NCBI GenBank assembly: GCA_008933055.1
Contig: WBXK01000008.1
Location: forward strand, 1-32,857
Direction: 5' to 3'
DNA: 32,857 nt
Origin: Verrucomicrobiota bacterium
GTDB taxonomy: Bacteria; Verrucomicrobiota; Verrucomicrobiia; Limisphaerales; JADLHS01
Part shown: positions 6,217 through 31,797 of the stretch, piece after piece
Layout: each line of letters starts with the position of its first letter
Position numbering within the stretch: the first letter of the stretch is position 1
Position numbers and translations under genes: made by a program
The notes under the pieces: generated by a model
The model's database searches: none
Told to the model about the DNA's origin: nothing
Seen by the model: only the letters and a program-made list of their open reading frames with translations

Positions 6217-9200
6217 TTACTGCGAAATGAGCTTCTGGAATTCCGGCATCGCGCGGAGTGGGGCGATATAGGGATCGTTTTTGGCGAATGCGGTGATATC
6301 TTTGGCGGCAGGGTTTGTAGCCCGGCGCGCATCGCTGAGTTTAATGGCGTTGGAGACGGCAAGCAATCCGTCCGCGTATTTAAGGGTGGTGGTGCGGATG
6401 GCGGCGAGATCATACCAAGCCTCTGGACTGCTTGGTTGCAGCTGGGTGATGCGCGTGAGTCCAGTCTCGACCTTGGGAAAATTATTCAACTGTTTGTAGA
6501 TGTCTATTATGTTCGCGAGCATCTGCAGATCAACTTTGGGGTTGGTGATGATGCGATCCATGACAGCGTAGCCTTGCTCGAACTGTTGCGATTGCAGGTG
6601 ATAGATCCCGAGGTTGAAAGCAGCTGACAGATTCTCTGGGTTCTTGCGGACATCTTCCTCGAGCTTTTGCAGGCTGCCGAATTGTCCCATCTGTTTTTTA
6701 TAGCTTTCAAGGTTGCCGATCAGTCCAGCGATCTGTCCATTGTAGGGATCAAGTTTTTGCGCGGTCTGGGCGATGAGCATTGCGTCATCAAGTCGTGGCG
6801 CGATGCCTGAGGGTGGCTGAATTAGCAACTGCACGTAGCGGAACAATGCTTCCGGGCTGTAAGGGCAGAAGGCAAATGCCTGGCGGAATGTGAAGTCGGC
6901 TTCCTTGTACAGTCGTAGTTTCTCGGCAGGTGTCTTGGGAGCAAATTCCGGCGGGCAGCTTGGACTCAGACGCCACGCATACACGCCGCCGATGGAGCTT
7001 CGCAGTTTGGAGAATGCTTTTTGGCCATTATCATCGCGGGCAAATTTCTTCTGGCCGTCCGTTAAACCACCCCAGTTGTGGCGCAGATAAACTTTCTCCA
7101 CAAACGAAACGATTTCTTTGACCTGCGTGTCGTAGTTGATCCAATTGCCGATAAGCCGTTCAGAGAATTGTGACCAGAACTCATGATCGCGTTCGTAGAT
7201 GTCTTCCGTGAAGGTCGTCAACGGCTTGCGGTTGATCTTCATGATGACGCCAAACGGAGTCAGATGCGGATACATCCATTCGAGCGGGAAGCTTTCCTCG
7301 ACGAAGAACTCATTGTTCGGGTTCTTGTCGAACATGACTTTGGTGAGCAAGCCGTTGATGGCCATGACGGCGACCTGACCGGAGACTTGTACTCGGTTAT
7401 CAATGATCTTTACATCTTCGCCAGGGCGGAGTTGGTTGCGCTGTAGGCGAGCTTGCGCGTCCGCGAGATACTCTTGGAAGCACACTTGGGAATCCTGCGG
7501 CGAGGCGATCTGCATCTCGCGGTCGGGATAAACGCCGCCCTTGCTTATGGCGATTTCTTTGGGGAATGCGCCTTCGATGATCTGGCGGTTTAGCCGAATG
7601 CGCGTCGAGCTCGTCGGGGTTTCGAGGATGAACGCCGCAAGCTCCGGCGTAACGTTTACGCCAGCTTCGGTCAACTTCTGCTGAACGGCCTTGGCTTGTT
7701 TTTCGAGATCAGCTTGGATGCGGTCGAGCCTTTGCTTAACGATGTTTTCCTGCGAGACAAGCCGCTGCATGGCGAGAGGGCCGAGTTGGCCGCTGCGTTG
7801 TTTTTCATCATAGTAGGCTTCGAGTTCAAACGTTGTCTTCCAACGCGCGGCGACGTTCGTCGCCATGGCTTTGTCGTCGTAAAGACCTTTCTCAAGGATG
7901 CGATTGAGGTCTTTGACCAGAGCGCGTTTTAACGCAGATTCATTGCCGCCGGAGAGGAGCGTGCGTGTCTCGGCCGAGAGTTCCCCGGCGAGTTGTTTCG
8001 CCAATCCGCTTGACCCATCAAGCAATTTTCCCGCAAACGTTTTCACGTCGAGGAAGTCTGCATCCGTGAAGAATGAACTTCCGGCGCGACGGTCTTTCTC
8101 GATGGATTCACCGACGCCGGTGAAGAACTTATCAAGTGGTCGCATCATGTCCGCGAACCCGGCGAGTTTGTTCTTAACTGGGCCTCGAACGTCATCTTCC
8201 TTACCAAAGTTCTCACCCATCTTGAGAACTGCACCCTCGAAGAACGGAGTGTCGAGACCTCGAATCTTTTGTGCGCTACGGTTGTAGTGGGCGCGGATGT
8301 AATTGAGATATGTGCCGTCGGCTAGCGCGTTTTGGGTAATGATATAAACATCGCGGCGATCAAACTTGGGATCGCGCGGTTTGCATTCCGGCGGAATGAA
8401 GCTCTCGCAGAAGATTGTGTAAGTCGGACAAAAACGTCCGGGATCGGTGCCTCCGTAGAGGATGGCGTCGCGCGTCATCTCTGGATAGATCGGCTTGCCG
8501 TCCTTGTTGTTGAACGGTGGGGAGAACATGTCGTGACCAAACCAGTAGCCGAAGAGATGGCCTCGTTGTTCGTTGTCGGCCCAGTGTGCCATGTACGATT
8601 GCAACGGGACAGTGGCAAAGATTGCTAGCGTGATCACGAGCGGGGCGCGAGTGCGCCAAAGGAGCAAGGCGATCAAAAATACTACGGTGAGTCCTAGTAA
8701 CAGCAAGTTCGCTAGGACAGGCATGGCGAATTGCCCGGGTTCAAATGATACGAGCAGCGTGCTGAAGAAGTGGCCGATGCCGCCGATGCCGTATTTGTCA
8801 CCCATGAGAATGATCAGCGTCATGAAGAACGAGATCGCCATCACTGTGCCGCCGATGAAGCGAAACACTTTGCGGTCGCTCGGCGCGTCGTTGCGATTGG
8901 ATAAGTAAACGCATATGGCAGCGATGAGGACAGAAATAAGCTTAGCGAATCCGATCATGGCCGGACCGTCCGTGCCGATCTCGGCGTTGGCGGGGATCAT
9001 GATGGAGAGTTTTTCTAACAGGCCGAGTTTGAGTTGTGCTTTGTCAAGTGGCACGGCGCTGAAGAGGACGACGGTGATCAGTAGGCAAATCAGACCAATG
9101 CCCGTGAAAGCGAGGGCAGGTTTGAAGCTGCTTTTGGAAGATTCGGACATGCGCATCAGTTGCAGCGTAGCGAGGACAAGGCTTGTGGCAGTCAATCCGA

Positions 9201-11001
9201 TGAAGATCAGTTTCACGAACCCGTTCTGGAAACGGTCCAGCCCCGCAACGGTAGGATCGCCGAGGTGCGAATAGGTTTCAACTGCCAGCGCATAAAGCGC
9301 GAGGTCAACTGCGACGATGGCGACAACGATGGCGACGCGTCTGAACGCCTGGTAGTGCGTGGCGAGATACGCGGCAAGCAGTGCCATGCCGTAACCGACG
9401 CCGATGGACACAAGAACGTGCGATGCTGTGAAGAATACGCGGATCAGTTCGCGTGCCTGGCGATCCGGCGGCGGATTGAGCAGCAGCACGAGCATCGGTC
9501 CAAGGCACATGAAGATGGCGACGACGCCGATGAGCCAGTTGCGTTCGCGCTTCTGCATCTGCCTATAGAACAAGAACACGCCAACGGCGATTAGAATGCA
9601 GACGAGATTGAATTCATTGTCCAATCCGTCGAGATACATCAACAACTGTTTGGTGTAAGTCCCGATGAAACTTGCGGTCTGCTCAAAGATGCCATCTCCG
9701 ATACCTTTGGTGGGGCTGATCTTTTCGTATTGGCCGCGAGTGAACGCGTGGATGAAACCCTCTACAGTGCGCGGATAACCCCATTGCATAGGCGGATTGC
9801 TCATGCCTGCGATGGCCATGTAAAGGTAGAACGACATGCCGATCATGAAGGCGACGCCTGTCCAGATGACAGCGAGACCGTCGTTGGATCGACGTTCTTT
9901 GTTCACGAACATCGAGTCGTAGGCTTGGTAGAGACGGACGCCGACAAATGCGACCAGTGCGAAAAGCGCATACATCTTCATCTGCGACAATGTCTCAGCA
10001 GCCTGCGCTGCTTCCATCGGATTGGTCGGAACCTTCATCTGTAATTTGGTGACGAGGAATAGTAACGCCCCGATCCCCACCGCTGGGCCTCCGATGTAAG
10101 CTGTGGTCTTTTGATTTTCCCGCAAAGTGAGCCACATCCAGGCTGCGGCGGAGCCGATACCGATGAAGTTGAAGATCACGAAAACGGGCATGTTGCTCGC
10201 AAGCAGCGACAGATTCATCGCCAATGCTCCGAGATAGATCACGACGTTCCAGAAGAGGAATTCTTTTCCGAGACGCGGCTTGACCATCACGATCAAGACT
10301 TCAAGCCCCATCGCTATGGGCAGGAGGGATTGGTGGTTGTTCACGCAGATGCCATACATGAAAAATGCGAGGTAGAGATAACGGTTCTGGTGCGGCGCAT
10401 AAACCCAGCGCAGCAGGAACAGCATCACGCCCATCAACGACAACACGCTGAACGCATACACTTCCACGATGACGGATTGGCTCCACATGTAGCCGTTGAA
10501 GCCGAGCAGCAGGCCCGCCACGAAGCCAGACACGATGCAGATGGCGTTCTCCCATTTACCCGCGATCTGTTTCAGATCCGCCATGCCTTCCATCAACATA
10601 CTGCTGCCGCGAGAGACGAGCAGGCCAAGCAGTCCGCACGCGATGGCGCCCGCCGTGGCTTCACCCAGCGCGACGCGCCAAGCGATATTGCCGATGGGGA
10701 GGAAGTGAGCCCACAGCCAAGTGTAAATGGTCCACACGGGATAACCCGGAGGATGCGGAATGCCTGCATACATGGAAGCCACGGCGAGTTCACCGGAGTC
10801 TTCCAATCCGAGATCTGGTGCGAGTGTCCAGAAATAACCTGCCCAGACACAAAGCGTGGTGATGAGAAACGCCATCCAATCAATCCGGCGGAACAGCGGA
10901 GGGGTGGGCGCGGGGAAGGCGTCGAGAACTTTGGTTGCCGGCGGAGTGGCTTCCGGAGATTTTGTTTTGGCGGTAGCCGCTTTTGTATTGTCCATGCTCA
11001 T
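6217..11001 (-). CDS. DUF2723 (TMEM260-like) multispanning membrane protein with C-terminal TPR-like region
   Basis: 1594 aa; N-terminal GLEDSGELAVASMYAGIPHPPGYPVWTIYTWLWAHFLPIGN motif typical of DUF2723; many TM segments; TPR-like tail (PENLSAAFNLGIYHLQSQQFEQGYAVMDRI; PSSPEAWYDLAAIR). Confidence 0.85.
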   Translation of the reverse strand: MSMDNTKAATAKTKSPEATPPATKVLDAFPAPTPPLFRRIDWMAFLITTLCVWAGYFWTLAPDLGLEDSGELAVASMYAGIPHPPGYPVWTIYTWLWAHFLPIGNIAWRVALGEATAGAIACGLLGLLVSRGSSMLMEGMADLKQIAGKWENAICIVSGFVAGLLLGFNGYMWSQSVIVEVYAFSVLSLMGVMLFLLRWVYAPHQNRYLYLAFFMYGICVNNHQSLLPIAMGLEVLIVMVKPRLGKEFLFWNVVIYLGALAMNLSLLASNMPVFVIFNFIGIGSAAAWMWLTLRENQKTTAYIGGPAVGIGALLFLVTKLQMKVPTNPMEAAQAAETLSQMKMYALFALVAFVGVRLYQAYDSMFVNKERRSNDGLAVIWTGVAFMIGMSFYLYMAIAGMSNPPMQWGYPRTVEGFIHAFTRGQYEKISPTKGIGDGIFEQTASFIGTYTKQLLMYLDGLDNEFNLVCILIAVGVFLFYRQMQKRERNWLIGVVAIFMCLGPMLVLLLNPPPDRQARELIRVFFTASHVLVSIGVGYGMALLAAYLATHYQAFRRVAIVVAIVAVDLALYALAVETYSHLGDPTVAGLDRFQNGFVKLIFIGLTATSLVLATLQLMRMSESSKSSFKPALAFTGIGLICLLITVVLFSAVPLDKAQLKLGLLEKLSIMIPANAEIGTDGPAMIGFAKLISVLIAAICVYLSNRNDAPSDRKVFRFIGGTVMAISFFMTLIILMGDKYGIGGIGHFFSTLLVSFEPGQFAMPVLANLLLLGLTVVFLIALLLWRTRAPLVITLAIFATVPLQSYMAHWADNEQRGHLFGYWFGHDMFSPPFNNKDGKPIYPEMTRDAILYGGTDPGRFCPTYTIFCESFIPPECKPRDPKFDRRDVYIITQNALADGTYLNYIRAHYNRSAQKIRGLDTPFFEGAVLKMGENFGKEDDVRGPVKNKLAGFADMMRPLDKFFTGVGESIEKDRRAGSSFFTDADFLDVKTFAGKLLDGSSGLAKQLAGELSAETRTLLSGGNESALKRALVKDLNRILEKGLYDDKAMATNVAARWKTTFELEAYYDEKQRSGQLGPLAMQRLVSQENIVKQRLDRIQADLEKQAKAVQQKLTEAGVNVTPELAAFILETPTSSTRIRLNRQIIEGAFPKEIAISKGGVYPDREMQIASPQDSQVCFQEYLADAQARLQRNQLRPGEDVKIIDNRVQVSGQVAVMAINGLLTKVMFDKNPNNEFFVEESFPLEWMYPHLTPFGVIMKINRKPLTTFTEDIYERDHEFWSQFSERLIGNWINYDTQVKEIVSFVEKVYLRHNWGGLTDGQKKFARDDNGQKAFSKLRSSIGGVYAWRLSPSCPPEFAPKTPAEKLRLYKEADFTFRQAFAFCPYSPEALFRYVQLLIQPPSGIAPRLDDAMLIAQTAQKLDPYNGQIAGLIGNLESYKKQMGQFGSLQKLEEDVRKNPENLSAAFNLGIYHLQSQQFEQGYAVMDRIITNPKVDLQMLANIIDIYKQLNNFPKVETGLTRITQLQPSSPEAWYDLAAIRTTTLKYADGLLAVSNAIKLSDARRATNPAAKDITAFAKNDPYIAPLRAMPEFQKLISQ

Positions 11002-11007
11002 TATAAA

Positions 11008-11385
11008 TCAGTTGCCAATTTTGGGCTTAAAGGAGCGCACACTAGACCGGGAATCCCCCCTGTTTGTCCATCCAAAAGTGTCCAGCCGGTTGGCTGTGGG
11101 TTGGAAGCTCGTCGCTAGATACGGGGCGTAATTCTGATTGCTCAAGCTCATAGTAATAGCGGTCGTTTGCGGCTCGCTATCGTTCAAGATCGGTTGTTCC
11201 AATTGACGCCACAGCGAAACGGAGACCATCAGACACGCCATCGTCGGCGTGAGAATCCTCGCCAGTCTCGGAAGCGTGACACTGAAACGTTGCCGCGCGC
11301 CAAAGAGCCTTCGCTCAACTTTCGGCGATGGGCTTCGTGGTTTCCAGGAACGCAACTGTTCCTCCAAAGTATTCATTTGTTTCAT
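11008..11385 (-). CDS. Hypothetical small protein with one probable TM segment, downstream of ECF sigma gene
   Basis: 125 aa, ends 6 bp before the DUF2723 gene; EEQLRSWKPRSPSPKVERRLFGAR followed by LTPTMACLMVSVSLW hydrophobic segment. Confidence 0.65.
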   Translation of the reverse strand: MKQMNTLEEQLRSWKPRSPSPKVERRLFGARQRFSVTLPRLARILTPTMACLMVSVSLWRQLEQPILNDSEPQTTAITMSLSNQNYAPYLATSFQPTANRLDTFGWTNRGDSRSSVRSFKPKIGN

Positions 11386-11866
11386 GCGATTCTCCTTTCA
11401 TGCAGGCCCGGAGTTTCTCCGGACCGTAGCGATAACGCCCCGCCGCTGTGTGCGGCTAGACTTCCAGCAATTTACCGATCTCCTCGAACGTGTAATCATG
11501 CCAGAGCTTTAGCACGATCACTTCGCGTTGCGGCAAGGCAAGTTCGCTCAGGCAACGCATGGCTGCGCTTTCGTTAGCGGATTCATCCGAGGCGCGCTCG
11601 AACCAGCGACTCGACTCATATTCCCGCGTCACGCGCCGCCACAACTTGCGTTTGTGATTCAATGCTTTATTGCGAAAACTCCGCACGCAGTAGTGCTCAG
11701 GCCGCTCCAGAGACCCCGACATCTGGATCAGGCGGAGGAAAGTTTCCTGCACTATATCTTCAGCTTCCGCGTGGGAAAGTCCCAGTGCGCGACCGTAAAG
11801 AACCAGCTCAGTCGCCTTCGAGTGATATAGTTTTTCGCACCACGCCGGTGTCTGTCCGTTATTCAC
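11315..11866 (-). pseudogene. ECF-type RNA polymerase sigma factor interrupted by an in-frame amber codon in region 4
   Basis: ORF 11456..11866 (GTG start) encodes sigma region 2 (AEDIVQETFLRLIQ) and part of region 4 (LPQREVIVLKLWHDYTFEEIGKLLEV), then TAG; the same frame continues PHTAAGRYRYGPEKLRACMKGE, the expected rest of the region 4 HTH, to a TGA at 11315-11317. Confidence 0.8.
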
Positions 11867-11936
11867 TTCACTTCATAGACACCTAACCCGGCGGATTTGT
11901 ATTTATTTTTTGCAAGCAGTCAGGTTATCTCGGCGT

Positions 11937-12339
11937 TCGCTCCGACGCGCGCTGCGTTTCCAGGCATGATCTAACGAAAGCGGGGGATTGTTGTGTTTAC
12001 GGCTTCCATGACTTCGCTGTTCGTTATCCCATCGCCACGAAGTATTCGGCGGCAAAGTTGGCTTATTTAGGGGCGGTGCGTTCTTTGGCGACGGAAGTTT
12101 CGCAACACGGCGTGCGGGTGAACGCCGTCGTGCCTGGTTAGCTTGAGTCCAATATGATGCGGAAGGCAATGGACAACGATTCTGCGCGTAAGGCCAAGAT
12201 TCTCGGTTGCACGCCGATGAATTATTTTGGTAACGCGGAGGATATCGGCTGGGCTGCCACGTGTCTCTGTTCGCTAGCAGGACAGTTTGTGACGGGAGTT
12301 GTGTCGCCGGTGGATGGCGGTTCGAGCGTCGGGTTCTGA
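11937..12339 (+). pseudogene. Short-chain dehydrogenase/reductase (SDR) remnant
   Basis: APTRAAFPGMI*RKRGIVVFTASMTSLFVIP / frameshift near 12027 / IATKYSAAKLAYLGAVRSLATEVSQHGVRVNAVVPG*LESNMM...FVTGVVSPVDGGSSVGF; YxxxK catalytic motif; stops at 11972-11974 (TAA) and 12139-12141 (TAG). Confidence 0.88.
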
Positions 12340-18007: not shown

Positions 18008-19096
18008 TCAGCCGAGGATGCGGCGGCCTTCGCTGTTGAAGATGCCTTTGAAGTTCATCTCCAAGGCTTGAGCGTTCGTCGCTTTGGCCATGGCCTCTTT
18101 CTCGGAGACGACGCCTTGTTTGACCAACGCAAAGAGTGCTTGGTTGAAATTCAACATGCCATCGTCTGTGCCGGTTTCAATGGCGACGGAGAGTTTGTCT
18201 AGGCGATTTTCTTCGATGAGTTTTTTCACCGTGCCGGTGTTGATCATGATCTCTAACGCGGGTGTCATCTTGCCGGCGATGGTAGGCACCATGCGCTGGC
18301 AGATTACGGCCTGCAAGGTTCCAGCAAGTTGGCGGCGGACTTGTTCTCGTTCGTTTGCATCAAAGAAATCCAGGATTCGCGTGATGGATTGCGCGGCATT
18401 TGTGGTGTGCAATGTGGATAGCACTAGATGGCCTGTGTCCGCCGCGCTCATGGCAGCGGCGAAGCTCACACTATCTCGCATTTCACCCACCATGATAATG
18501 TCCGGGTCTTGTCGAAGAACGTGTTTCAAGGCGTGATGGAATGATTGCGTGTCCAGCCCAACCTCGCGTTGTTCTATAACAGATTGATTGTCCTCGAATA
18601 CGAATTCGATTGGGTCCTCAAGAGTGATGACGTGTTTCTTAAAATTGCCGTTGATGTGTTCGATCATCGCCGCAAGTGTGGTGGATTTACCGCTGCCGGT
18701 TGAACCAGCCACAAGCACAATGCCGCGGGGTGATTCCGCGATTTTTCTGATTTGCGGGAGCAAGCCGAGCTCCTCGAAGCTTGGGACGTTCGTCTTCACG
18801 TAGCGCATGGCCAGACACCACTGGCCTCGTTGCTGGAAAAGATTGGTGCGGAACCGTCCGACGTTGGGAATGTAATAAGAAAAGTCAGCCTCGCGTTCCT
18901 CCTCCACCTTCTTTTTTATGTGTGCAGGTGTGATCGTGGCAATGACATTGTTCATCCAACTTTCGGTCGGATGCGGGCACTCGATGGCGATGAGCTCGCG
19001 GTTGATGCGGAAGATCACGGGGGTGCCGATTTTGATATGCACGTCTGATGCGTGACCATCCACCGCCGTCTTCAATATCTTGTAGAACAATTCCAT
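18008..19096 (-). CDS. pilT: Type IV pilus twitching motility ATPase PilT
   Basis: 362 aa; ASDVHIKIGTP, Walker A AGSTGSGKSTTLAAMI, HVITLEDPIEFVF, LRQDPDIIMVGEMRD, GHLVLSTLHTTNAAQSITRI. Confidence 0.93.
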   Translation of the reverse strand: MELFYKILKTAVDGHASDVHIKIGTPVIFRINRELIAIECPHPTESWMNNVIATITPAHIKKKVEEEREADFSYYIPNVGRFRTNLFQQRGQWCLAMRYVKTNVPSFEELGLLPQIRKIAESPRGIVLVAGSTGSGKSTTLAAMIEHINGNFKKHVITLEDPIEFVFEDNQSVIEQREVGLDTQSFHHALKHVLRQDPDIIMVGEMRDSVSFAAAMSAADTGHLVLSTLHTTNAAQSITRILDFFDANEREQVRRQLAGTLQAVICQRMVPTIAGKMTPALEIMINTGTVKKLIEENRLDKLSVAIETGTDDGMLNFNQALFALVKQGVVSEKEAMAKATNAQALEMNFKGIFNSEGRRILG

Positions 19097-22826: not shown

Positions 22827-25800
22827 ATGGTTGATTCCAAACCAGCAGGGATTTTCCCCTCACAAACGACAGAACAGTTGATTTCTTATATCAACGTAAA
22901 ACTAGTCCTCCTAGGCTGCCAACCTGTGAGGGTGAATGACTCAGAAGATTCGTCAGACCTAGTGTCGGCTTTTGCTGCGCAGTATCAGGAGAAGGACCGA
23001 TTGCTTGGCCAATACCTTTGCCCTGCCGATCAGCGCATCCAAACGTTCCTTTACGATTATCTTCAGGATGTCGCCGTGCCGCGATTGCCACTGCGCACGT
23101 TCACACTGGATCGCGCCGGACTCGCGCGAGTGCTGTCGCTGCCGGTGGACCGTGATGAATTCTCCTCCGACATCATTACCTCGTTCCGCCTCAAAAACGG
23201 CGTGTTACACAATCCCAAGAGCGACCGCCGCACCACTGCTGGGATTTTTCATGTCGCCGAAGGCGGCCTGCCCATTCCCGATGACAAACTCGGCGTGCCG
23301 AAACAAACCTTCGCCAAGATGCTCGGTTTGGCGCTGAATCCACCGCGCGATCTGATGCGTCTGCCGTTTACCGCAACGCAAAACCAGCCCGCCGAATGTT
23401 TTGTTTCATTGATGTTGCGCCCGATTGTTTGCCCGGAAGTTCCCGGATTCACATCTCAGAAAACGATGGAAGTCCGCTTCTTTGTGCCGGGCAACATGGT
23501 AAGCAACCTGGATTTCGTGGAAAGCATCTTCGGAAACGCGGGCGATCCGCTCCTGCCGGAAAATGATTCTGGTCTCGACGCAGAACATTGGACGGGGCAC
23601 ACCGGCTGTATAGTTCTCGCGCCGCATCTGGTCCGTGTGACGAAGAAGGCCGTTGGTTTGCCGCAATGGAAAGACGCTACCGAACGCCAACAACGCGACG
23701 GGATGTGCTGGAAGGACGAGAACGAACTCTATAACAACGGTGGTGCCTTCAAGCTCACCTGCCGCGATGAACACGGCGTCATCGTGACCATCATCGCGGA
23801 TAATTATTTTGGTTACTGCAAGAAAGAGGTGAAAACGCAGATCAGTTACGCGGCGAATCTGTTCGGTCTTTGCGAAGAGGAACACGCCGGTGGCGCGCTG
23901 GTTTTCCCCGCCTATGATCTTGGTGAGGAATTTTCCGGAGGCACACATGTCCGTCAACTTGGTCATACGTTCAAGGAAGTCGCAGAGGTCTATCGCGACT
24001 TCATGGACGTGAAGCCCGAGGGGTATGGAGTGGACAAGAAGTTTGATGACATCCTTTACGTACCCGAACACGCGAGGTTCGATCTTCATGCACAACGCGT
24101 GACTTGGAAGAATGAGACTGGCGAACATGCCATCAAACTTCTCCCTACTCAGACTTACGTCCGGCCATCCGGCTACAAGGTGCGCATGGAAAAGCCGCCC
24201 GGCACAAACCGGGCGTGGCGGCTTGTCGGCATTGCCGGTGAAGGATTGCTCTGTCACAAACCCTGCACGGTTTCCGGCGGTGGTAAATCTGAAATCTCCA
24301 AACCCATCACTGACGCCATCCTGACCGGCCCGGTATTCGTCGCCGATTTGAAGGCGGATATGAACAAGGTCACGAGGCTGATCAATCGCGATTACTCCGA
24401 CCGATTCAAGGACAAGACCCGCGTGGACAAGCGCGCCGTGCTGGATTCCGCCCGATCGCTGGGGTCAGTCATCAAGCTGCTATCCCCTGATGAGCGCGAT
24501 TTCACTCAGGAATACAACGAGTGGCTCGAAAGTGTTCCGCAATACATCAAGGAACTGGTCTTTGTGGTGAAGCGGTATTACAAGCCGGAGTGGAACACGA
24601 AGTGGCGCGAGCATTTCAGCGTGGACATCATCAACGGCACACCCGGCAACGAACTCAAGTGTGACAACCGGAAACTCGTCACTACGCATCTGCGCGTAGG
24701 CTTTGACGATGAAGGCGCGTGGCGGACATTTGGGTTGCGTAAAGACTTTTATCCGGCAGTGAAGATTCAGGCGGAAGACGACATCACCGCTTCTGTTGTC
24801 GTTCCTTCCAATAATATCTCTACAGGCATAATCGCCAGTGATTCGCCAGGGCGAACAGATGCCGCCAATACCTCTCGCATCGAACTGGCCACTGCCAACA
24901 ATTCGAACTCGCTTAAATTCGTGATCAATTGCGAGCGACGTTTGTTCCAGCGTCCTGACGATGCGATCCATCGCGGCTACGACAAGATGACGGAACAAGA
25001 TTTTGTTCGCAGGGATAATTTCTTTTCCAACTATGAGCCGCTCAACGTCGAGGCGGCTCGCGCACTTGTGGAGGAGGCAATCGGGTTCAACCAGTTCACT
25101 GAACCTATGCAAGCACTCATCCGCAGCGTCGCTGAAACTGGTTCTAACAGTTACTTCGTCAGCTCTGCACACCCGCGCATCGTGGACGGCAAGCCCAGCA
25201 AGAATCCACGTTATCTCCAAGTGCGACCGGACCTCCTCGCGCCACGCCAAGTTCATCTTGCAGAGATGGCCACGCGCTTGCGTCGTCACGTCCCACCGGG
25301 GTTGCCTGTTCATAATCCTGTCGGGGCTGTGTTGCCAGGGCGTCGCAACAATCCTCCTGAGCCTGGAATCCGCTCGCTCGCGGTGTTCAATCCCATCCAC
25401 TACTTCGAGCTCCCGGAGTTGTTCATGGAATTTATTTGTAGCATGACGGGCAAATCACCTTCCACTACCGGCGCAGGATCAGAAGGCGCGTTGACCAAAG
25501 GCCCATTCAACGCCTTGCCGCCCATTATTGATCTCAACAACGCCCTCGTCTCGTTCCTGCTCACAGGACATGACGCATTTGTCACCGCCGCAGGTTATGT
25601 CGGGCCAAAGTTCCGCGTGGATCACGATGTCAGTCTTCTCGTGCCCGAAGTCTGGTGTCACATGGATACGGCGGAGCGGGAGCCTCAATTTCTAATCGCG
25701 AACCACTACCTCGAAAAGTGTGAAGATTTTGTTCACGACGGTAAAAAGGTTCTCGCAAGCCGATTGGGTTATCGCATCAACATTCGATTTGTTCATTCCT

Positions 25801-26318
25801 TCTTTGGACGCGTGTTTAATCATCCACACGAGGTTTTTTCTGATACGATGCTCAAGCCGGAATTGCAGGATATGGCGGTATTCGTGGATGGAATAGAGAA
25901 CATAATCGCCACGCAGAAGCGCGTTTCGCAGATGTATTTTGACGATGGTAGCATCGATCAAGCTTGCCCGCCTTTGCAGGCACTGCTGCACATCATGTTG
26001 CACGATCAATGGCAGGACAAAGACCTAGATCATTCCGATGTGAGGAAGCTGTTCACGCGTGAAAACCTTCTGGCGAGCGACTGGTATGCAGCGCGACTCA
26101 ATGCAAAGCAGGCTGTGGATCGCAATCTCTGGAAGCGGCATGTGGAATACCTCGACAAGTTTTTGAAGCGCGCGAGTCACGCCGATGAAGCCACCCGCCT
26201 CAACATTGCAGACCGACTGGTTCAAGCGCGAAAGAAGTTGAACGAGGTTGAAGCCTCAGATTATTGGAAATCGCTCGCCGGCACACTGGGCGCAGAGCCC
26301 ATTGGTTCGTATCGGTAG
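22827..26318 (+). CDS. Probable PPi-type (diphosphate) phosphoenolpyruvate carboxykinase
   Basis: 1163 aa; GHTGCIVLAPHLVRVTKKAVGLPQW, IIADNYFGYCKKEVKTQISYAANLFGLCEEEHAGGALVFP, P-loop-like TVSGGGKSEISK; size and recalled motifs fit the large PPi-PEPCK family; no search run. Confidence 0.65.
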   Translation: MVDSKPAGIFPSQTTEQLISYINVKLVLLGCQPVRVNDSEDSSDLVSAFAAQYQEKDRLLGQYLCPADQRIQTFLYDYLQDVAVPRLPLRTFTLDRAGLARVLSLPVDRDEFSSDIITSFRLKNGVLHNPKSDRRTTAGIFHVAEGGLPIPDDKLGVPKQTFAKMLGLALNPPRDLMRLPFTATQNQPAECFVSLMLRPIVCPEVPGFTSQKTMEVRFFVPGNMVSNLDFVESIFGNAGDPLLPENDSGLDAEHWTGHTGCIVLAPHLVRVTKKAVGLPQWKDATERQQRDGMCWKDENELYNNGGAFKLTCRDEHGVIVTIIADNYFGYCKKEVKTQISYAANLFGLCEEEHAGGALVFPAYDLGEEFSGGTHVRQLGHTFKEVAEVYRDFMDVKPEGYGVDKKFDDILYVPEHARFDLHAQRVTWKNETGEHAIKLLPTQTYVRPSGYKVRMEKPPGTNRAWRLVGIAGEGLLCHKPCTVSGGGKSEISKPITDAILTGPVFVADLKADMNKVTRLINRDYSDRFKDKTRVDKRAVLDSARSLGSVIKLLSPDERDFTQEYNEWLESVPQYIKELVFVVKRYYKPEWNTKWREHFSVDIINGTPGNELKCDNRKLVTTHLRVGFDDEGAWRTFGLRKDFYPAVKIQAEDDITASVVVPSNNISTGIIASDSPGRTDAANTSRIELATANNSNSLKFVINCERRLFQRPDDAIHRGYDKMTEQDFVRRDNFFSNYEPLNVEAARALVEEAIGFNQFTEPMQALIRSVAETGSNSYFVSSAHPRIVDGKPSKNPRYLQVRPDLLAPRQVHLAEMATRLRRHVPPGLPVHNPVGAVLPGRRNNPPEPGIRSLAVFNPIHYFELPELFMEFICSMTGKSPSTTGAGSEGALTKGPFNALPPIIDLNNALVSFLLTGHDAFVTAAGYVGPKFRVDHDVSLLVPEVWCHMDTAEREPQFLIANHYLEKCEDFVHDGKKVLASRLGYRINIRFVHSFFGRVFNHPHEVFSDTMLKPELQDMAVFVDGIENIIATQKRVSQMYFDDGSIDQACPPLQALLHIMLHDQWQDKDLDHSDVRKLFTRENLLASDWYAARLNAKQAVDRNLWKRHVEYLDKFLKRASHADEATRLNIADRLVQARKKLNEVEASDYWKSLAGTLGAEPIGSYR

Positions 26319-30363: not shown

Positions 30364-30417
30364 AGCTTCTCCTCAACCCAGCAACCTAACCTACTTTCGC
30401 GTTGTCTTCCCAACTTT

Positions 30418-31680
30418 TTAAGCGTCTTTATCTGGTTTTGCTCGTGCATCAATGCCACCGTTGACGAGTCCAATGATGGTCGAGAACATCTCAATGACGA
30501 TGCTTCCGACGACGACAGCGAGGAACGTCATCATGATCGGTTCGAGCATGGACGTCATCGCGTCACGGTGTTGTCCATTTCCTGATCGCAAGCGTCGGCG
30601 GCAATCAACAACGTGTCGGGCAGCGCGCCGGTTTGGTTGCCGATGTCCAGCAAGCCTATGATCATTGGGCGGAACACTCTTGATGCGCGGAGGGGCGTGG
30701 TCATCTCCTCGCCTTCCTTCACACCGTCGTGGATGGACTTGAGGACATTGCTCACGACGACGTTGCCTGCGGTTTCGCGCACGATGTTTAACGCCTGCAA
30801 CACTGGCACGCCGCTGGCGAGCAATGTCTCCAGCGTCCATGAGAAGCGTGATTTGGGGGACTTACGGAACACCGCGCCGAGCAGGGGCATCTTGAGTCTG
30901 AATTGATCGAAGTCAAAACGTCCCAGGGTGGCTTTCAGCCCACGGAAGAAGCCTCAGATGATTGCCGTCATCGCGATGGCGACAAGCGTTTCGTTATGCT
31001 GGGCAATGTCGCCGATGTTAAGGATGAGCGTGGTGATGGCTAGCAACGCTTGCCCACCCGTCATACCGGAGAAGACTTCCTTGAACCTCGGGATAACGAG
31101 TAAAATCATCCACGCCATGACTCCGGACGCGATGAACACCACCGCGACCGGATAGAACATGGCGGACCTAGCCTTGCCTTTGATTTTCTATGCTTTCTCC
31201 ATGAAATTCGCCAGACGTCACCGTGAGATATCCAACGCTCCGCCGGCTTAACCCGCGCGAACCATGTTGATGAAAATTTTGCTGAATACTTTCGAATGCG
31301 CTGGGAGCGCACCTGAGAACAGGCTGCCGCCTTCACTTGTTTTTGCCACTTCACCGAGGACGCGCTTGAGCGTGGTGTTGGATTCTTCTTGTTTGAAGGA
31401 TGTTGAGACCCCTAATCAATGGCAGCCCAGCCTGCACGTGCGTCGCCACCTGTGGCGTGAGTGCGGCCGCTGCGGCGGGTTTCACGCGTTGCTCGGACAG
31501 CGTGATCTTAAACTTATTGCGGGACGCGGCGGATTTGGTTTTCGTGATGACGTGCGTGATTCTGTTCTAGCGGCGCTCAGCGACGCGAGTCGGGAAAAGA
31601 CCCATTTCTTTCATGCGGCTTACAACTTCGCTCTGGCTGACTCCTGAGGCATTCACAGCTTCCTGAAAGTAATCAGTCAT
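30418..31680 (-). pseudogene. Type II secretion / type IV pilus inner-membrane protein (GspF/PilC family), heavily interrupted
   Basis: From MTDYFQEAVNASGVSQSEVVSRMKEMGLFPTRVAE through QAGLPLIRGLNIL, LKRVLGEVAKTSEGGSLFSGAL, IPRFKEVFSGM, LKMPLLGAVFRK, LLASGVPVLQALNIVRETAGN, to MLEPIMMTFLAVVVGSIVIEMF; stops at 31567-69, 31248-50, 31218-20, 31188-90, 30954-56; frameshifts near 31390 and 30562. Confidence 0.93.
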
Positions 31681-31797
31681 GGTGTTGTTGATGTTGACCA
31701 GGCTGCTAGAGAATTGTCCCGCGTGGACACTTTGGATGAAGTATTGCATCGTATCCGTCATCAGGGCTAAAATGTCTGAGATTGGACAAAGCACACT

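Follow-up and report, generated by a model that had tools for sequence, protein, structure and literature searches.

A probable recent loss-of-function allele of an ECF sigma factor gene upstream of intact genes for its putative partners in a Verrucomicrobiota genome

The window analyzed here (the whole stretch of 32,857 nucleotides), from an uncultured Verrucomicrobiota bacterium, carries, on its minus strand, an array of three genes, the first of which is a truncated ECF sigma factor ORF (11456..11866, minus strand) that starts with GTG at 11866 and runs into a TAG at 11458-11456 (minus strand; codon 137), for a product of 136 amino acids that ends in TFEEIGKLLEV and consists of region 2 and the first part of region 4. 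Past the TAG, the sigma frame (11315..11455, minus strand) reads PHTAAGRYRYGPEKLRACMKGE... and stays open until the stop at 11317-11315, for a total of 183 codons. This segment, which would be untranslated if the TAG terminates, corresponds to the remainder of region 4 and the C-terminal tail, and can be aligned residue for residue with the homologous end of region 4 in 49 orthologues, in full agreement with the sequence-only reading, which had described an ORF ending in TFEEIGKLLEV-TAG with the missing part of sigma-4 following in the same frame. The second gene (11008..11385, minus strand) encodes a small protein of 125 amino acids with one hydrophobic segment and starts at a position that, in intact relatives, lies within the sigma frame. 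The third (6217..11001, minus strand) encodes a TMEM260-like (DUF2723) membrane protein of 1594 amino acids with TPR repeats, a candidate target of the sigma factor. Both ORFs are intact, as that reading had noted for the downstream genes. Directly upstream of the sigma gene lies a conserved, ECF-type promoter-like element, AATACAAAT-N11-GGTGTCTAT (11875..11903, minus strand), which ends 8 nt before the GTG. The sequence-only reading overlooked this element, as well as the overlap of about 70 nt between intact sigma orthologues and the next gene and a leucine-to-proline replacement past the stop (L149P).

By Pfam, region 2 (Sigma70_r2) of the truncated protein is intact, whereas the match to Sigma70_r4_2 covers only profile positions 4-38 of 54, compared with positions 3-54 in the intact sister orthologue. 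An alignment with Mycobacterium tuberculosis SigL, for which structures have been solved, places the residues following the TAG in the recognition helix. Hence the encoded copy lacks a complete region 4, the helix being located after the TAG, and the earlier suggestion that the helix recognizing the -35 element is lost stands. No second copy of the sigma factor was detected elsewhere in the genome by a six-frame search. In one intact orthologue, the PF04542, PF08281 and PF04545 profiles all score above their cut-offs, so that both region 2 and region 4 are present, and none of the specific NCBIfam ECF subfamilies reaches its cut-off; no description of this ECF group was found in the papers searched.

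A six-frame search of 96 relatives identified clear orthologues in the genus, the family and the order. Codon 137 encodes serine in 28 and proline in one of the first 29 orthologues, and serine in 19 and proline in one of the 20 additional ones; altogether, comparison of region 4 across the orthologous sigma factors yields 47 serines, two prolines and no stop (0 of 49), and none of these 49 homologues naturally ends at LLEV. Thus, the window frame is disrupted relative to its intact orthologues. The nearest of these, in the sister genome G003 (84% identity), has TCG at codon 137, one base apart from TAG, so that the single TCG-to-TAG substitution proposed from the sequence alone would account for the stop. 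The database record of the G003 contig reads ‘MAG: Akkermansia muciniphila isolate MH-08apr19-10', but the genome groups with other Verrucomicrobiota, so this label is probably erroneous. A distant orthologue in another genome (G059:C52:4300-6300) contains an in-frame TAG of its own in place of Tyr24. Barring a sequence error in one of the two stops, this sigma gene has thus suffered no fewer than two independent interruptions.

In the intact relatives, the order of the genes is the same, namely, the sigma factor, then the small protein, then the TMEM260/DUF2723-like protein with TPR repeats. Counted from codon 137, the sigma frame continues for 41-54 codons and shares approximately 70 nt with the gene for the small protein, in the +1 frame, an arrangement that is conserved across the order and corresponds to 11315-11385 (minus strand) in the window. 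The small proteins share the motif LE-QLRSW-PRRPS, one hydrophobic segment and a conserved tail, SN-Q-YAAYLPGSFQ-AN-LDTF-WTN, and match no Pfam or NCBIfam family, including the known anti-sigma families. Given its position and the layout of the locus, this one-TM protein can be considered a putative anti-sigma factor. No mention of DUF2723 was found in the papers searched.

The consensus of the upstream element in the relatives is TATACAAAT-N11-GGTGTCTAT, located directly upstream of the sigma start and conserved through much of the order, with diverged versions in several more distant orthologues. The 23-nt distance between the start of TATACAAAT and GTCTAT presumably fits the -35/-10 pair of an ECF promoter. 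The element of the window differs by a single change, in the first base (T to A), a position occupied by T or C in the other clear copies. A search of 57 genomes that allowed up to one mismatch located roughly one copy, at the sigma gene, in each genome that has the element, compared with no match to the reversed control pattern in any of the 57. The few additional copies are found 9-20 nt before genes for paralogues of the C-terminal half of the TMEM260-like protein in two genomes (G007 and G010; this likeness was judged by eye, from shared motifs), before a membrane-fusion-type protein in a third (G049) and at a duplicated sigma gene in a fourth (G029). In most copies, only about 7-12 nt separate the end of the -10 element from the start codon, so that a transcript with little or no leader is probable. 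These features make the element a candidate autoregulated promoter of the sigma gene in the intact orthologues, and its presence before the sigma gene as well as, in two genomes, before the paralogues of the TMEM260 C-terminal half suggests that, in the relatives, the locus is a self-contained, one-operon ECF module.

The stop is not the only unusual feature of the window copy. At alignment columns with 90% or greater conservation among the other sequences, this copy departs from the consensus eight times, compared with a maximum of six in any other sequence of the 29-orthologue set. Three of these departures also occur in the sister; the other five are private (V38I, P53L, P110A, S137stop and L149P), of which P53L, P110A and L149P affect sites that are otherwise invariant or occupied by Leu or Met. 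In particular, each of the 29 compared orthologues has Leu or Met at position 149, in the recognition helix. Before the stop, the polarized amino acid changes number eight on the window branch and one on the sister branch. This asymmetry is in the direction expected of a loss, but is suggestive only: two flanking genes show a milder excess (window to sister, 25:16 and 18:9), from which the 8:1 ratio does not differ significantly (P = 0.11 and 0.20), so that faster evolution of the entire genome is a possible cause of the private changes.

The single substitution that separates codon 137 from the codon of the sister, along with the state of the source genome (199 contigs, 78% complete), makes a one-base assembly or consensus error, or else a minority allele of the sampled population, with the gene intact in the cell, the main alternative to a null allele. 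Nevertheless, this possibility appears rather unlikely because the change is a substitution rather than a homopolymer indel, because P53L, P110A, L149P and the change in the promoter-like element would be left unexplained, and because other genes in the window and in the genome are clearly decayed.

Conceivably, the 136-amino-acid protein could itself be functional, for example, binding core RNA polymerase via the intact region 2 or titrating the putative anti-sigma factor. The low dN/dS of 0.14 before the stop, relative to the sister, is compatible with such a role but is largely a record of evolution that predates the stop. This is the least probable of the explanations considered, given that no orthologue is naturally truncated and that residues otherwise invariant are replaced ahead of the stop (P53L and P110A).

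The codons past the stop are informative with respect to the age of the lesion. Across 22 of these codons, there are three synonymous changes and one replacement relative to the sister, compared with the approximately eight replacements expected under neutrality over half of the branch at the gene-wide dS, or about 2.7 at the local dS. The stop is therefore probably recent, although, at the lower local dS, the observed count is compatible with neutral evolution of these codons for half of the branch. The apparent constraint counts against a loss inasmuch as it also fits continued translation. An open post-stop frame nearly identical to that of the sister would be expected if some ribosomes, or a suppressor tRNA, produced the full 183-amino-acid sigma factor, with the TAG acting as a switch. 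Under such a scheme, the TAG would be decoded part-time, and the full-length protein would be made only under inefficient UAG termination, so that the operon would be coupled to translational status; we regard this as highly improbable. Past the stop, a helix site occupied by Leu or Met in 29 of 29 orthologues has changed to proline, and no relative has TAG at codon 137. Nor does the genome appear to recode or suppress amber codons. TAG terminates 111 of the 829 ORFs of roughly 200 or more amino acids in a 1.37-Mb sample (13%), a proportion matching that of the sister (59 of 444). The internal stops of decayed genes are mixed, with 10 TGA, five TAG and two TAA, and show no amber excess. Among the tRNAs found, none has a CUA anticodon, which falls short of proof because the assembly is 78% complete, and a C-terminal fragment resembling release factor 1 is present at a contig edge. 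Amber recoding or suppression was accordingly rejected on the combined evidence of stop usage, internal stops, tRNAs and release factor 1, there being neither TAG depletion or amber excess, nor a UAG-reading tRNA among those found, nor a conserved stop or downstream signal. A hairpin past the stop, GGUCCGGAG-AAA-CUCCGGGCC, was considered as a read-through or coupling element, the folding z-score of the region being -2.98 in the window compared with -0.88 in the sister. It was rejected because, across 27 sequences, pair conservation and covariation fall within the range of the shuffles; an Rfam search gave no match, and the hairpin is taken to be a by-product of the codons for G-L-E-K-L-R-A. 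Thus, the suppressible or read-through switch that the sequence-only reading had entertained finds no support in genome-wide stop usage, tRNAs or RNA structure.

Decay of genes is evident elsewhere in this genome. Internal stops occur in eight of the 141 comparable coding genes, a count obtained after filtering for spurious antisense ORFs and misplaced starts. In the window, a relic of a PilC/GspF-like inner-membrane protein, recognized by eye from the reading frames, contains several stops and frameshifts (~30400-31770, minus strand); the gene for a T2SSE-type ATPase (18008-19096) is intact. Directly upstream of the sigma gene, there is a relic of a short-chain dehydrogenase (SDR; ~12000-12339, plus strand) that retains the C-terminus only (adh_short_C2), with no N-terminal half, and has an in-frame TAG at 12139-12141. 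In two relatives (G002 and G005), a PfkB-type kinase gene occupies the upstream position instead, indicating that the region has been rearranged. The window also contains an ORF of 1163 amino acids (22827-26318, plus strand) with no Pfam match at E-values up to 0.01. At least 36 of the sampled relatives, including one represented by a single contig (G083), encode the TMEM260-like protein and have no sigma orthologue. Hence, the presence of this neighbor without the sigma factor is common in the order, and the lack of the regulator in so many relatives points to ordinary gene loss rather than to a new kind of switch.

Taken together, these observations are best explained by a recent loss-of-function allele, that is, an early pseudogene, of the ECF sigma factor in a setting of ordinary gene loss, which we consider very likely. 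The absence of homologues ending at LLEV, the single replacement in 22 post-stop codons and the private changes at nearly invariant sites all accord with the very recent loss that was among the readings first offered, and further support comes from the other decay in the window and the genome, the codon-24 TAG in G059 and the 36 or more sigma-less relatives. In the intact state, a sigma factor of about 183 amino acids would be expressed from its dedicated promoter-like element, with its gene overlapping that of the putative anti-sigma factor and followed by that of the presumed target, the TMEM260/DUF2723-like protein. Once codon 137, at the start of the predicted -35 recognition helix, became TAG, the 136-amino-acid product would retain region 2 but not the helix for -35 recognition and, accordingly, would be expected to fail to drive transcription from its own promoter. 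The operon would no longer activate itself, leaving expression of the target gene to other sources of transcription, a situation that necessarily prevails in the many relatives devoid of a sigma orthologue. The locus thus appears to be a clean example of the loss of a dedicated ECF sigma factor with retention of its probable target neighbor, a combination that is common in the order, and the intact module of the relatives provides a testable sigma-promoter pair with a very low genomic background, that is, one nearly unique element per genome.

The window gene is best compared with bacterial pseudogenes produced by a single nonsense change, such as those of Chlamydia (PMC2720952), where arginine decarboxylase genes are reported to have been inactivated independently by nonsense and missense mutations. 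As in those cases, one nonsense change interrupts a gene that is otherwise well preserved, intact orthologues are found in relatives and the loss recurs independently within the group; unlike the Chlamydia genes, the window gene encodes a regulator and is represented by one genome of its species only. The resemblance to read-through or amber recoding is limited to the in-frame TAG and the homologous continuation, whereas a genome-wide amber excess, a suppressor tRNA among those found, a conserved TAG and a conserved signal are all missing. With typical ECF sigma factors (PF04542 and PF08281), the intact orthologue shares both domains, the conserved upstream element and the small one-TM neighbor; the differences are that the window copy is devoid of the last part of region 4 and that the neighbor falls outside the known anti-sigma families.
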